A DNA stretch of 5,368 bases from a bacterium (GTDB taxonomy: Bacteria; NPL-UPA2; JAGMAN01), in the NCBI GenBank assembly GCA_023130215.1, contig JAGMAN010000010.1:1-5368 (forward strand). The letters run 5' to 3'. Of the stretch, positions 1,099 through 5,368 are shown one piece after another. The notes under the pieces were generated by a model. It had not been told where the DNA came from. It did not search any database and saw only the letters and a list, made by a program, of their open reading frames with translations. A program made the position numbers and the translations under genes. The stretch's first letter is position 1, and every line of letters starts with the position of its first letter.

Positions 1099-1099
1099 T
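1089..1099 (+). promoter_or_regulatory. Extended Shine-Dalgarno for infC, overlapping the thrS stop
   Basis: The string AAGGGGGTGAT matches the ideal AAGGAGGTGAT at all but one base, and that mismatch (G for A) can still form a G-U pair with 16S rRNA. The G run ends 9 nt before the ATT at 1105, which is good spacing. An out-of-frame ATG at 1098 is only 2 nt from the G run, too close for efficient initiation. The site therefore selects the ATT start and probably compensates for that weak codon. Confidence 0.8.
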
Positions 1100-1104
1100 G
1101 GGTA

Positions 1105-1620
1105 ATTCCAGGAGAGGCAAGAACAAATACCCGGATTAGGGCTTCACAGGTCCGAGTAATTGGCAGCGATGGCAGTCAGGTAGGGATAATACCGACAAGA
1201 GAGGCTTTGAGGTTAGCTCAGGAGAAAGGCATGGACCTGGTTGAAGTAGCTCCGCAGGTTTCCCCCCCTGTCTGCCGCATCATGGATTACGGGAAATATA
1301 GATATGAGCAAGCCAAGCGCAGTCGGGAGGCCCGCAAGAAACATAAGACGGCGGTGCTTAAAGAGATAAAGTTTCGGACTAAGATTGGGGAGCATGACTA
1401 TCAGGTAAAATTGCGCCATGTCCAAAGTTTCTTAAAGGATGGCGACAAAGTGAAGGTGACCATAATGTTCAGAGGGCGTGAGATGCAGCATCAGGATATC
1501 GGACGAAGAATCCTGGACCGTTTGACGGCGGATGTAGGTGAGTTAGTGAAAGTAGAAGAGAAAATTAGAATGGAAGGCAGAAATATGGTCACGATCTTTG
1601 CTCCGGCGAAGAACAAGTAA
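1105..1620 (+). CDS. infC: Translation initiation factor IF3, ATT start codon
   Basis: IF3 binds the 30S subunit, blocks 50S joining and proofreads the start codon and initiator tRNA. After the thrS stop (1096-1098, same frame) there is no ATG or GTG, and the first TTG (1207) falls inside the conserved N-domain. Conserved IF3 sequence ([14 protein letters not shown], then [10 protein letters not shown]) lies upstream of that TTG, so it cannot be the start. ATT at 1105 gives 171 residues, close to the usual 170-180. The N-domain covers about residues 1-75 and includes [12 protein letters not shown] with the conserved DYGK at 61-64. A basic helical linker follows, and the C-domain starts near KEIKFR (86-91) and includes GDKVKV (113-118) and FRGRE (122-126). 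AUU starts on infC are established in E. coli and Geobacillus, where IF3 represses its own initiation; the same control is inferred here. rpmI follows after 13 nt. Identity is certain. The exact start is very likely but rests on reading-frame logic. Confidence 0.96.
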
Positions 1621-1845: not shown

Positions 1846-2205
1846 ATGGCTCGAGTGAAATCCAGCGTTACTGCCCGGAAGCGGCACAAAAAATACATAA
1901 GACTGGCTAAGGGCTACTGGGGAAGAAGGAGCCGCACCTATGTGATAGCTCGGGAGGCAGTGGAGAAGGGTTGGATGTATGCCTTCCGGGATAGGCGAGT
2001 GAGGAAACGGGATTTCAGGAGGCTTTGGCTGGTGCGCATAAATGCGGCGGCCCGCGTCCATAACCTCAGTTATTCCAGATTCATGGATGGACTTGGGAAG
2101 GCAGATATCAGGTTAAATAGAAAGGTATTAGCTGATTTAGCGGTAAATGATCCAGGAGCCTTCGGTAAATTGGCGGAAATAGCAAAGGAGCAATTATGTA
2201 CATAA
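1846..2205 (+). CDS. rplT: 50S ribosomal protein L20 (bL20)
   Basis: Binds 23S rRNA directly and is needed early in 50S assembly; in E. coli and Bacillus it also represses its own operon. The 119 residues match the family length of about 117-120. The N-terminus [16 protein letters not shown] is the typical rRNA-threading basic tail. [11 protein letters not shown] and [16 protein letters not shown] follow, then the globular part with [17 protein letters not shown]. The ATG at 1846 is the only start consistent with the family and has a strong Shine-Dalgarno across the rpmI stop. The last ten bases overlap the start of the following trkA-like gene, which ties that gene translationally to L20. 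In many bacteria pheS comes next; here three potassium-transport genes intervene. Confidence 0.98.
2184..2190 (+). promoter_or_regulatory. Ribosome-binding site for the first trkA, inside rplT
   Basis: AAAGGAG lies in the last codons of rplT, 5 nt before the ATG at 2196. It fixes that ATG as the start of the first RCK protein and shows that the gene is read by ribosomes arriving at or finishing L20. Confidence 0.7.
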
Positions 2206-2843
2206 TCATCGTTGGCTGTGGTCGAGTAGGAGCAGTTTTAGCTGATCTCCTTTCCCGGGAAGGCAACGGTGTAGTAATTATCGATACCGATGAGGGGCGC
2301 TTCAAGGGTTTGGATCCCCGATTCAGCGGGGTGACCATCCTGGGAGATGGGGCTGACATAGATATCTTGAAGGAGGCTAAAATCAAAGATGCCCAGGTTT
2401 TTGTGGCCGCCACTGGGGACGATAATTCCAACCTCACCTCCGCCCAGATAGCCAGGAAGATATTCAATGTTCCTCGAGTGTTAGTGAGGGTGAAGGATCC
2501 AAGGAAAATGGATGTTTATCGAGAATACGACCTGGAGGCAGTCTCAGCCACTACCCTGGCTGCCCATCGCTTGGCTGAGATGGTGAAGACTCCCCGGGAG
2601 ATACAGGTCCTGGTCAACCTGGGAGAGGTGAGGGTAGTCCAGTTTAAATTGCCCACCCGGGAGACTTCTATAAAACTTGCCAAAATGGTGAGAGCTGGAA
2701 CTTTCTCACCATGTGCTATTTTAAATGAGGGTAAAGTCACTCTGGAGAATCTGGTGGAAGGTCTTCTGCCGGGGGCAGAGGTAGTAGGGGCGGTATCTTC
2801 CGGCAAGATGAAGCTGCTGGGACAGCTCTCACAGGAGAAATAA
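2196..2843 (+). CDS. trkA: TrkA-family K+ uptake regulatory protein, half-length (RCK_N + RCK_C), copy 1
   Basis: Cytoplasmic RCK (KTN) subunit that binds a dinucleotide and gates a Trk/Ktr potassium channel. It has 215 residues, about half of the 458-residue E. coli TrkA, so it carries one RCK_N and one RCK_C domain instead of two of each. The Rossmann fold shows GCGRVG at 7-12 and Asp30 at the end of the second strand, which favours NAD(H). GDGAD at 50-54, TGDDNSNL at 73-80 and [11 protein letters not shown] at 92-102 are typical RCK_N motifs. RCK_C covers about 135-215. The gene overlaps rplT by 10 nt and abuts a second RCK gene with TAATG, followed by trkH, so it most likely forms the gating ring with those products. 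All fold landmarks are present. Which ligand (NAD, ATP or a cyclic dinucleotide) it prefers cannot be told from sequence. Confidence 0.93.
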
Positions 2844-3496
2844 TGCAAGTCGTTATAGTGGGAGGAGGAAACGTTGGTTATTCATTGACCCGGGCACTGC
2901 TTTCCAACAAGCATCAGGTAACCATAATTGAAGAAAAGTCGGCTAGATGCAGCGGCCTGGTCAAAGACCTGAAGGCGGTGGTCATTAATGGAGATGGAAC
3001 CAATTTAAAGACCTTAGCCGATGCAGAAGTGCAAAATGCTGATGTCTTAATAGCCCTTACCGGGCGGGATGAGGACAATTTAATTGCCTGCCAGTTAGCC
3101 CACCAGCATTTCAAAGTACCCCGGACCATCGCCCGGGTAAGCAACCCCCAGAACAAAGAACTGTTTAAGAAGTTAGGGGGAGTAAATATGGCTGTCTGCA
3201 CTACAGAGATAATCTCCTCATTAGTGCAGGAAGAGGTCTCCTTGAAAGACATCATTACCCTGCTCACCTTAAAGGAGGGGAAGGTAGCTATTGTGGAGAA
3301 AGAGATAGGGGAGAGTTCCCCGGCTAAGGATAAAAAGATCATGGAGTTAGCTCTCCCGGAGGAATGCGTTATCATTTCTGTCATTCGGGGCAGCCAGATA
3401 ATCTTTCCCCATGGGCAGACCACTCTTAAGGTGAAGGATAAGGTTTTGGCCTTAACTACCGCTCAGAGGAAAGCTACTCTCCAGCAAATAATTTAA
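2843..3496 (+). CDS. trkA: TrkA-family K+ uptake regulatory protein, half-length (RCK_N + RCK_C), copy 2
   Basis: Second cytoplasmic RCK subunit, 217 residues. It has GGGNVG at 7-12, acidic Glu30-Glu31 after the second strand, GDGTN at 50-54, TGRDEDNL at 73-80 and VPRTIARVSNP at 92-102. RCK_N runs to about 130, and RCK_C from about 135 to the end includes GKVAIVE and a terminal beta-rich part. It aligns with copy 1 without gaps over the first 102 residues (39 identities by my hand count), so the two look like diverged duplicates. The ATG at 2843 shares its A with the upstream TAA stop, with GGAG a few bases upstream, so translation is coupled and near-equal amounts are expected. By analogy with the two-subunit Thermotoga maritima TM1088A/TM1088B ring, a mixed octamer beneath TrkH is plausible; that is inference. 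Confidence 0.93.
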   Translation: MQVVIVGGGNVGYSLTRALLSNKHQVTIIEEKSARCSGLVKDLKAVVINGDGTNLKTLADAEVQNADVLIALTGRDEDNLIACQLAHQHFKVPRTIARVSNPQNKELFKKLGGVNMAVCTTEIISSLVQEEVSLKDIITLLTLKEGKVAIVEKEIGESSPAKDKKIMELALPEECVIISVIRGSQIIFPHGQTTLKVKDKVLALTTAQRKATLQQII

Positions 3497-3501
3497 AGCA
3501 T

Positions 3502-5004
3502 ATGTCTCCTCTGAACCACAAGTATTCCAGCCTAATAAGTTATTTAGGACTATTAACCATGGGGCTGGGAGTTATTCTTCTTCTGCCTCTCTTCAGTCTC
3601 CTTTTCTGGCCAGAGGAGATGAGCCACCTGGGTAGCTTTCTCATCCCGGCCATATTCTCTATCCTAATAGGGCTTTGCCTCTGGAGGGGCTTTCGGCCGG
3701 GGGGCGAGAGCCCGCCCTTGACCGCTCCTGATGCTTCCCTCATGGTAACGGTCATCTGGTTGATAGCGGTCATCCTGGGTTCTCTCCCCTTTGTCCTGTC
3801 CAAAATCCTATCGCCATTAGATGCTATCTTTGAGGCCATGAGCGGATGGACGACCACCGGACTGACCATGGTCAATCCGGACAATACTGCCTCCATTTTC
3901 CTCCTCTGGCGAAGCCTGATGCAGTTTGTGGGAGGAGCAGGACTGGCAGTAATCATGCTCTCGGCCATCATTGGCTCTTTGGGACCCGGGGTCTATGAGG
4001 CAGAAGCCAGAACAGACCATTTAGTTCCTCACATCATGCATACCGCTCGAATGATTGTCAAGATTTACCTGGCCTACTATATCCTGGGAGTCCTTCTTTA
4101 CCTGGCGGCTGGAATGGAAATCTTTGATGCTATCTGCCATGCTATGTCCGGCTTAGCCACAGGTGGTTTCTCCACTAAGAGTGAAAGCATAGCCTACTGG
4201 CAAAGCGTCCCGGTGGAGATTGTAAGTTTAGTGCTCATGCTCCTGGGGACGACTAATTTTGCTACTCACCATGCTCTGATCTCCAGCCGGGGAAAGAAAG
4301 GACTGAAGGATGCTGAGATAAAACTGATGGCATGGTTGATTATTATAATTACACCCTTGGTTATCTTTGGGTTAATGAGCCCCCGGCTTGGCATCAGCCT
4401 GTCATATGCTGGTCCCCCTGGTCTGTGGGAGGGTTTCCGAAATGGTCTCTTCCAGGTAGTCTCCGCCCTTAGTGGAACCGGCTACTCCACAACAGCGCTT
4501 AGCCAATGGAGTCAGTTTTCACTATTTCTCATTATCGTTCTAATGGTCATTGAAGGAGGAACGGGCTCCACTGCCGGTGGAATCAAACTTTACCGAATAG
4601 CCATTATCATTAAGTCAATCTGGTGGTGGATAAAGAAGCAATTCTATCCCTCCTCAGCCGTTATCCAGAGGACGATCTGGAGGCGGGGGGAAAGGCTGGA
4701 GATACAGGATAAACATATCCAGGCAGTAGCTGGCTTCACCGGCCTTTATCTTCTAACCTATCTCATCGGGGTAACCATCTTCTTAGGAAGTGGATTTTCC
4801 CTTCCTCAATCCATGTTCGAGTTCGCCTCAGCTATGGGAACAGTAGGGCTCTCACTGGGAATCACCAGGCCGGATATGCCCATAGCCTGCAAGATAGCCC
4901 AGATATTGGGCATGTGGTTGGGGCGTCTTGAGTTCATAGCCATCTTTCACGCCTTCATCAGGGTCGGACGAGATTTGAGGATAAGGAAGGTAGAAAAGGA
5001 ATGA
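3502..5004 (+). CDS. trkH: Trk-type K+ uptake membrane subunit TrkH
   Basis: Integral-membrane channel-like subunit of the Trk/Ktr/HKT superfamily that takes up K+ across the cytoplasmic membrane, gated by TrkA-type rings. It has 500 residues, close to the usual 480-500, and is hydrophobic throughout. The four membrane-pore-membrane repeats are recognised by their filter loops: MSGWTTTGL (113-121), MSGLATGGF (215-223), LSGTGYSTT (323-331) and AMGTVGLS (444-451), each with the filter glycine. EGGTGSTAGG (351-360) is the intramembrane gating loop after the third pore. GMWLGRLEF (470-478) carries the conserved Arg475 of the last helix. Two further helices near the N-terminus (about 12-35 and 45-62) fit TrkH rather than the shorter KtrB. 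The gene starts 5 nt after the second trkA with no clear Shine-Dalgarno, and its stop overlaps the next start (ATGA). TrkH rather than KtrB or TrkG is favoured by length and by the extra N-terminal helices. Confidence 0.96.
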   Translation: MSPLNHKYSSLISYLGLLTMGLGVILLLPLFSLLFWPEEMSHLGSFLIPAIFSILIGLCLWRGFRPGGESPPLTAPDASLMVTVIWLIAVILGSLPFVLSKILSPLDAIFEAMSGWTTTGLTMVNPDNTASIFLLWRSLMQFVGGAGLAVIMLSAIIGSLGPGVYEAEARTDHLVPHIMHTARMIVKIYLAYYILGVLLYLAAGMEIFDAICHAMSGLATGGFSTKSESIAYWQSVPVEIVSLVLMLLGTTNFATHHALISSRGKKGLKDAEIKLMAWLIIIITPLVIFGLMSPRLGISLSYAGPPGLWEGFRNGLFQVVSALSGTGYSTTALSQWSQFSLFLIIVLMVIEGGTGSTAGGIKLYRIAIIIKSIWWWIKKQFYPSSAVIQRTIWRRGERLEIQDKHIQAVAGFTGLYLLTYLIGVTIFLGSGFSLPQSMFEFASAMGTVGLSLGITRPDMPIACKIAQILGMWLGRLEFIAIFHAFIRVGRDLRIRKVEKE

Positions 5005-5368
5005 GGGAAAAAGAAATCAAAGAATTAGTGGAGCGGTTAAAGCCTCTGGAAGTTCATATATTGAAAAATATGATTCCAGGGAAAAGCCACAGCGAATCGG
5101 ATATGATAAAGAACCTTGACCTCTCTGAGGGTCAAGTTATTGGCACCTTCGGGTGGCTGAAAGCAAAAAAATTGGTTGAGGAGCTCCCGGAGAGTGAAGA
5201 GAGAACATCTTATGTGCATAGTACGGAAGAGGGACTCGATTATGAAACAAAGGGACCACCAGCCATCATTGCCGAGTTGACACGTAAGAGTGCTGTCCAC
5301 AGGACGCCCTTTAGGGCTGCAAGCGAAGGGCAGGCCAACCTGACCTTAAATGAATTAGCCTCAAAACT
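5001..5368 (+). CDS. pheS: Phenylalanyl-tRNA synthetase alpha subunit, archaeal/eukaryotic-type N-terminus (3' end outside window)
   Basis: Probable catalytic alpha subunit of PheRS, which charges tRNA-Phe as a complex with PheT. The frame is open from the ATG at 5001 to the window edge, 122 full codons. The start overlaps the trkH stop (ATGA), with AAGGAAGG at 4983-4990 as ribosome-binding site. Residues about 9-85 look like a winged-helix domain: LKPLEVHILKNM, a helix-turn-helix ending in LSEGQVIGTFGWLKAKKLVEE (41-61), a wing, then YVHSTEEGLDYETKG (71-85). Residues 114-122 (LTLNELASK) may begin a second winged helix. This order is characteristic of the N-terminus of archaeal, eukaryotic and spirochaete PheS. 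Ordinary bacterial PheS begins with an antiparallel coiled coil instead. The position downstream of rplT, where bacterial pheS normally sits, supports the call. The catalytic motifs are not in the window, so an unrelated winged-helix protein is not excluded. Confidence 0.8.
   Translation, partial: MREKEIKELVERLKPLEVHILKNMIPGKSHSESDMIKNLDLSEGQVIGTFGWLKAKKLVEELPESEERTSYVHSTEEGLDYETKGPPAIIAELTRKSAVHRTPFRAASEGQANLTLNELASK
5115..5136 (+). repeat. Short inverted repeat inside pheS
   Basis: CTTGACC (5115-5121) is complementary to GGTCAAG (5130-5136). Two further pairs within the loop (T5122-A5128, C5123-G5127) leave one bulged G and a three-base loop. No T run follows, so it is not an intrinsic terminator. 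It is within coding sequence and may be chance; a role in mRNA structure early in pheS is only a possibility. Confidence 0.4.

Follow-up and report, generated by a model that had tools for sequence, protein, structure and literature searches.

The open reading frame at the right end of the window, the 5368-bp stretch of DNA analysed here, is the beginning of a pheS gene of archaeal/eukaryotic type, situated in the place where bacteria usually carry their own pheS and interrupted in frame by a short interspersed repeat. The best explanation of these observations taken jointly, to which a probability of about 0.87 is given, is that the window carries the start of an archaeal-type PheRS alpha subunit gene, that this gene was acquired by in-place displacement, and that a genus-specific mobile repeat lies within it. 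The repeat within the pheS reading frame is more surprising than the replacement of PheRS.

Gene organization and host organism

The window covers contig C2 from end to end; the contig belongs to an assembly (G000) of 1.01 Mb, 136 contigs and 90% completeness. All its genes are on the forward (+) strand: the 3' part of thrS for threonyl-tRNA synthetase (1–1098; TIGR00418, 488.9 bits), infC for IF3 (1105–1620), rpmI for bL35 (1634–1831), rplT for bL20 (1846–2205), two trkA-like genes (2196–2843 and 2843–3496; matches to the TrkA NCBIfam model with E = 4.9e-28 and 1.4e-46, respectively), the potassium transporter gene trkH (3502–5004; TIGR00933, E = 6.5e-86), and the start of pheS (5001–5366). 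The infC, rpmI and rplT genes were identified as open reading frames, the latter two together with tblastn matches to rpmI-like genes at the equivalent place and with a syntenic rplT in relatives. The probable start codon of infC is ATT at 1105, preceded by a Shine-Dalgarno-like stretch (window 1099–1125). No ATG, GTG or TTG is present in the interval from the thrS stop to the conserved InfC N-terminus, and the ATT context is kept in two relatives (L094 and L097). In E. coli, translation of infC is known to begin at AUU.

Four related genomes were used for comparison: G001 (contig C58, JAUWHM010000143; locus L094, PheS protein L006), G002 (candidate division NPL-UPA2 MAG-914, contig C10, JAJOKU010000109; locus L097, PheS L008), G003 (contig C82, JAADIA010000079; locus L095, PheS L092) and G004 (NPL-UPA2 bacterium Unc8, contig C20, NDHY01000005; locus L096, PheS L093). 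In a tree of ThrS, InfC and RplT, the window was grouped with L094 and L097 (100/99), L095 and L096 were next (100/100), and all five loci were set apart from Nitrospirota. Since the window groups in this tree with the named NPL-UPA2 genomes Unc8 and MAG-914, its host is, as judged from these three proteins, a member of candidate division NPL-UPA2, whose first genome was recovered from serpentinising groundwater (PMC6305446). Loci L094 and L095 are titled 'Nitrospirota bacterium' at NCBI, yet both cluster with NPL-UPA2 in the same tree, and for this reason the names look wrong.

The pheS fragment encodes an archaeal/eukaryotic-type N-terminus

The pheS reading frame begins at the end of trkH, sharing the 4 bp ATGA with its stop, and runs off the contig after 122 codons. 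Residues 12–88 matched positions 3–76 of the 496 positions of NCBIfam NF003210 (PRK04172, the archaeal-type PheS alpha model) with 26.5 bits and E = 2.7e-6, and no other family was matched in the NCBIfam profile search. The preliminary description had read all 122 residues as archaeal-type winged-helix PheS; this holds for residues 12–88, but residues 94–109 (5280–5327) are an inserted repeat. By sequence alone, a winged-helix N-terminal region is found in place of the bacterial coiled coil.

At 122 residues, the fragment cannot reach the NF003210 cut-off of 350 bits, and its identity therefore rests on congeners. The PheS proteins of the four relatives (L006, L008, L092 and L093) are all full-length (510–543 aa), all encoded behind trkH, and score 523–567 bits against the same model. 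In two congeners and one relative (G001, G002 and G003), an alpha subunit of 529–543 residues with a class II domain (531–543 aa in the congeners alone) is followed by an archaeal-type pheT of 548 aa (L094), 565 aa (L097) and 552 aa (L092, which scores 496.7 bits with pheT_arch), in agreement with the expectation of a class II alpha subunit of about 500 residues and then an archaeal-type pheT of about 550. In Unc8, pheT is not adjacent to the archaeal-type pheS, behind which lies instead a large unrelated open reading frame of 665 aa.

Among solved structures, a profile made from these PheS proteins spans nearly the whole of the human and other eukaryotic PheRS alpha chains, N-terminal domain included, and bacterial PheS structures match it in the catalytic part only. 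The window fragment itself gave chance matches only in a phmmer search of the PDB. In a tree of the N-domain, window PheS falls inside the NPL-UPA2 PheS clade (97/93). Taken with the full-length syntenic orthologues of the congeners, the window reading frame is identified by sequence comparison as the N-terminus of an archaeal/eukaryotic-type PheRS alpha subunit.

Within this clade the window protein is divergent. Its first approximately 120 residues share approximately 34% identity with congeners, which share 57% with each other; the identity of ThrS, InfC and RplT between the window and congeners is 86%. The N-domain tree places window PheS outside the group of L094, L095 and L097 (98/96), and in the AU test a clade of the window with L094 and L097 was rejected (p = 0.03). 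These two results would fit the uptake, by recombination into the slot, of a PheS allele belonging to some other NPL-UPA2 lineage, an event that we regard as possible but as having less than an even chance, as opposed by the facts that approximately 105 residues only are compared, that the N-domain evolves fast in general (28–60% identity within NPL-UPA2), and that the AU test kept a clade of the window with L094, L097 and L095 (p = 0.42). On these approximately 105 residues, the divergence reflects either a recombined NPL-UPA2 allele or fast evolution.

The archaeal-type pair occupies the bacterial pheS-pheT slot

In NPL-UPA2 congeners the order of genes is thrS-infC-rpmI-rplT-trkA-trkA-trkH-pheS-pheT, as supported from thrS to pheT by loci L094, L095 and L097. 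The gene thus stands, as the preliminary description had pointed out, downstream of rplT, that is, in the canonical bacterial position behind thrS-infC-rpmI-rplT on the same strand, with the three Trk genes (2196–5004) intervening. Two genomes of the same GTDB phylum as the window and of other orders (G006 and G008) carry both genes in their bacterial form behind thrS-infC-rpmI-rplT, with 340 and 339 aa for PheS and 680 and 663 aa for PheT, respectively. The trkA-trkA-trkH set is present between rplT and pheS in all genomes of the NPL-UPA2 order seen (L094–L097 and the window), and is absent from there in G006 and G008.

Between the two histories left open at the outset, in-place replacement or retention of an ancient alternative enzyme, replacement is the better supported, and it is favoured as the simplest because G006 and G008 of the same phylum keep bacterial pheS-pheT after rplT. 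An archaeal-type pheS-pheT pair would have replaced the bacterial genes at their usual position after rplT in the common ancestor of the NPL-UPA2 order, and trkA-trkA-trkH would now stand between rplT and the incoming pheS. As predicted from the family, the enzyme would charge tRNA-Phe as an alpha2-beta2 PheRS of archaeal form.

Retention would mean that the archaeal-type PheRS is old in this lineage and never was a replacement, the bacterial pheST of the sister orders being the later arrival. In its support, archaeal-type pheST adjoins rplT also in Nitrospirota, either directly behind it (L098 and L099) or in convergent orientation (11 loci), and because of this the association with rplT is either older than NPL-UPA2 alone or has arisen repeatedly. 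This history is nevertheless unlikely, as sister orders of the same phylum carry the bacterial type in exactly that slot and as the bacterial type is found in most bacteria sampled. The convergent Nitrospirota loci are L104, L108, L111, L120, L121, L123, L128, L130, L137, L139 and L142; in L098 and L099, pheST is co-directional with thrS-infC-rpmI-rplT.

In a PheS tree built of sequences other than archaeal ones, NPL-UPA2 formed one clade (96), apart from Nitrospirota and Spirochaetota. No archaeal PheS references were found in plasmids or viral contigs. The archaeal origin of the donor is taken from family models and published work, and the pair may also have come by transfer from bacteria to bacteria. 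Long-branched PheS proteins of archaeal/eukaryotic type were also seen in other bacterial phyla (L009 in G024, L168, and L007 in G038), of which L009, with the longest branch, may have a separate origin.

Comparison with known archaeal-type PheRS of bacteria

Archaeal-type PheRS in bacteria is already known from Spirochaetaceae, and its presence in NPL-UPA2 is a new example of the same kind. The spirochaete enzymes, with an alpha subunit of 513–528 aa and a beta subunit of 514–573 aa, both of archaeal form as in NPL-UPA2, were read as having been transferred from archaea and having replaced the bacterial enzyme (Andam and Gogarten 2011, PMC3191353). They belong to another phylum, and differ from the NPL-UPA2 genes, which lie in the bacterial rplT-pheST slot with Trk genes between; rplT was near pheS in none of the Spirochaete loci compared. 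The present analysis found archaeal-type PheRS to be common in Nitrospirota MAGs as well, which, together with Spirochaetota, make up a large group of related sequences in the PheS tree and, like NPL-UPA2, often have the genes adjoining rplT. They differ in forming a separate PheS clade and in being mostly convergent with the rplT operon, only L098 and L099 having pheST directly behind. No report of archaeal-type PheRS in NPL-UPA2 or Nitrospirota was found in the papers searchable here.

An interspersed repeat is inserted in frame in pheS

Residues 94–109 of the window PheS (TRKSAVHRTPFRAASE, 5280–5327) are without counterpart in other PheS proteins. They correspond to an interspersed coding repeat on the + strand (5280–5325), which is read in frame within pheS as TRKSAVHRTPFRAAS(E), is absent from pheS of congeners, and has a near-identical copy in frame in coaE on contig C6, with a 100% match to the query over 50 bp. 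The core of the repeat is a 22-bp sequence, ACACGTAAGAGTGCTGCAAGCG, with a net insertion of 21 bp encoding TRKSAAS. The pheS copy is composed of the left core (5280–5295), an internal stretch of 24 bp (5296–5319), and the right core CAAGCG (5320–5325).

A total of 61 copies, mostly in frame within genes, were collected from three congeneric genomes. Matches to the left half of the core numbered 10 in G000, 28 in G001 and 24 in G002, and none was found in G003 or G004. Among 386 genomes from across bacteria, the 22-mer was present in three, all of this genus; the repeat was absent from plasmids and, as an exact 16-mer, from viral contigs. The genes with copies are those for RpoD, an NtrC-like regulator, MurG, YchF, asparagine synthase, CoaE, EF-G (fusA), Mfd, bL25, MoeA, an acyltransferase, RmlD, uL15, trigger factor, Tmk and AspS. 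The right flank of the repeat prefers AAnG. No terminal inverted repeats were seen in 33 minimal copies, and no transposase for the repeat was found. Folding of the 22-bp core (z 0.8) and of the window copy (z −0.25) showed no gain over shuffles. The idea that internal modules form mini-hairpins was dropped, as their folding was not convincingly above that of shuffles (z 0.80 to −1.86).

The repeat is an insertion, since empty sites exist in congeners for both coaE and rpoD. RpoD has seven extra residues in G000 only, the four relatives being empty. At the first site in CoaE, 15 extra residues are present in G000 and seven in G001, with none in G002, G003 or G004; at the second, seven are present in both G001 and G002 and none in G000. 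The two coaE sites imply different groupings of the species that carry the insert, so that one of them must have undergone precise loss, recombination or parallel insertion. Pairs of filled and empty sites gave a net gain of exactly 21 bp for minimal copies, and no more than 1 bp was common to insert and target. The orthologous copies in coaE, murG and ychF carry internal extensions that differ between species, indicating that growth between GCTG and CAAGCG came after insertion.

All 24 expanded copies have a length of 22 bp plus a multiple of three, and 46 of the 53 copies within open reading frames of at least 150 codons are in sense orientation. The core includes TAA in one of the sense frames (CGTAAG); all five copies read in this frame carry GAAAG for GTAAG, compared with four of the 48 others (Fisher p = 4e-5, orthologous copies counted), although such p-values are too small and overstate the significance because related repeat copies are not independent. 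The pattern is plain even so: the repeat is shaped by the reading frame. Since it is read in three sense frames and in antisense, tolerance of the insert, rather than the peptide itself, is probably the point.

The repeat would, on these observations, be a non-autonomous mobile sequence, which inserts a net 21 bp (seven codons) or longer variants with the frame kept, and which would have spread through essential genes by surviving where a short added peptide of seven residues does no harm. It could alternatively be a functional peptide tag or a regulatory site kept by selection and not mobile, as the identical peptide in many proteins and the preserved reading frame might suggest. This is improbable, because the use of all three sense frames and antisense leads to different peptides and because presence or absence varies between congeners at the same site.

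Three kinds of known small elements may be compared with the repeat. The very small dispersed repeats of cyanobacteria (SDR5), mobile sequences of approximately 24 bp, are similar to the NPL-UPA2 repeat in small size and are not known as in-frame insertions across essential genes. MITEs are defined by terminal inverted repeats and target-site duplication, neither of which was found, the sequence shared with the target being 1 bp at most. Rickettsia palindromic elements, palindromes of approximately 150 bp, lie in frame in unrelated genes and encode a conserved peptide (review PMC10969869). The NPL-UPA2 repeat resembles them in being a short repeat located in frame in unrelated genes and encoding a peptide, but its core is 22 bp, it is not palindromic, and it grows internally by multiples of 3 bp. 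There is about an even chance that it represents a new class of minimal mobile DNA, restricted to one genus, with a net insertion of 21 bp free of inverted ends or clear target duplication, that places seven codons into essential genes and is later extended at a single internal position by lengths divisible by three, with modules that differ between species.

The remainder of pheS in the window genome

In the 90%-complete G000 assembly, neither the catalytic part of pheS nor an archaeal-type pheT was found. A separate bacterial pheST elsewhere in the genome would have spoken against the present assignment, and neither a bacterial pheS nor a bacterial pheT was detected in this assembly. A scan of the genome contigs with the window fragment, which is too divergent for this use, gave no match. 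Repeat copies lie at or close to the ends of several G000 contigs (C119 ends inside a copy, C87 in a copy, and C2, the window itself, 43 bp past a copy), and because of this an assembly break is the likely explanation for the missing rest of pheS and pheT. That the reading frame encodes a winged-helix regulator instead, as the low NF003210 score (26.5 bits) and the restriction of the sequence to the N-terminal winged-helix part might suggest, is most improbable in view of its start at the trkH stop in the same slot as the full-length congener pheS and its position in the NPL-UPA2 PheS clade of the N-domain tree (97/93).

Implications

The repeat raises the question of how a 21-bp sequence moves without obvious ends or transposase and settles in rpoD, fusA, coaE and pheS without killing the cell, and the presence/absence pairs between congeners make its movement directly testable. 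The occurrence of bacterial and archaeal PheRS in one and the same slot in sister orders of one phylum offers a clean case for the displacement of an essential two-subunit enzyme, and the swap of PheRS can be used as a synapomorphy of the NPL-UPA2 order.
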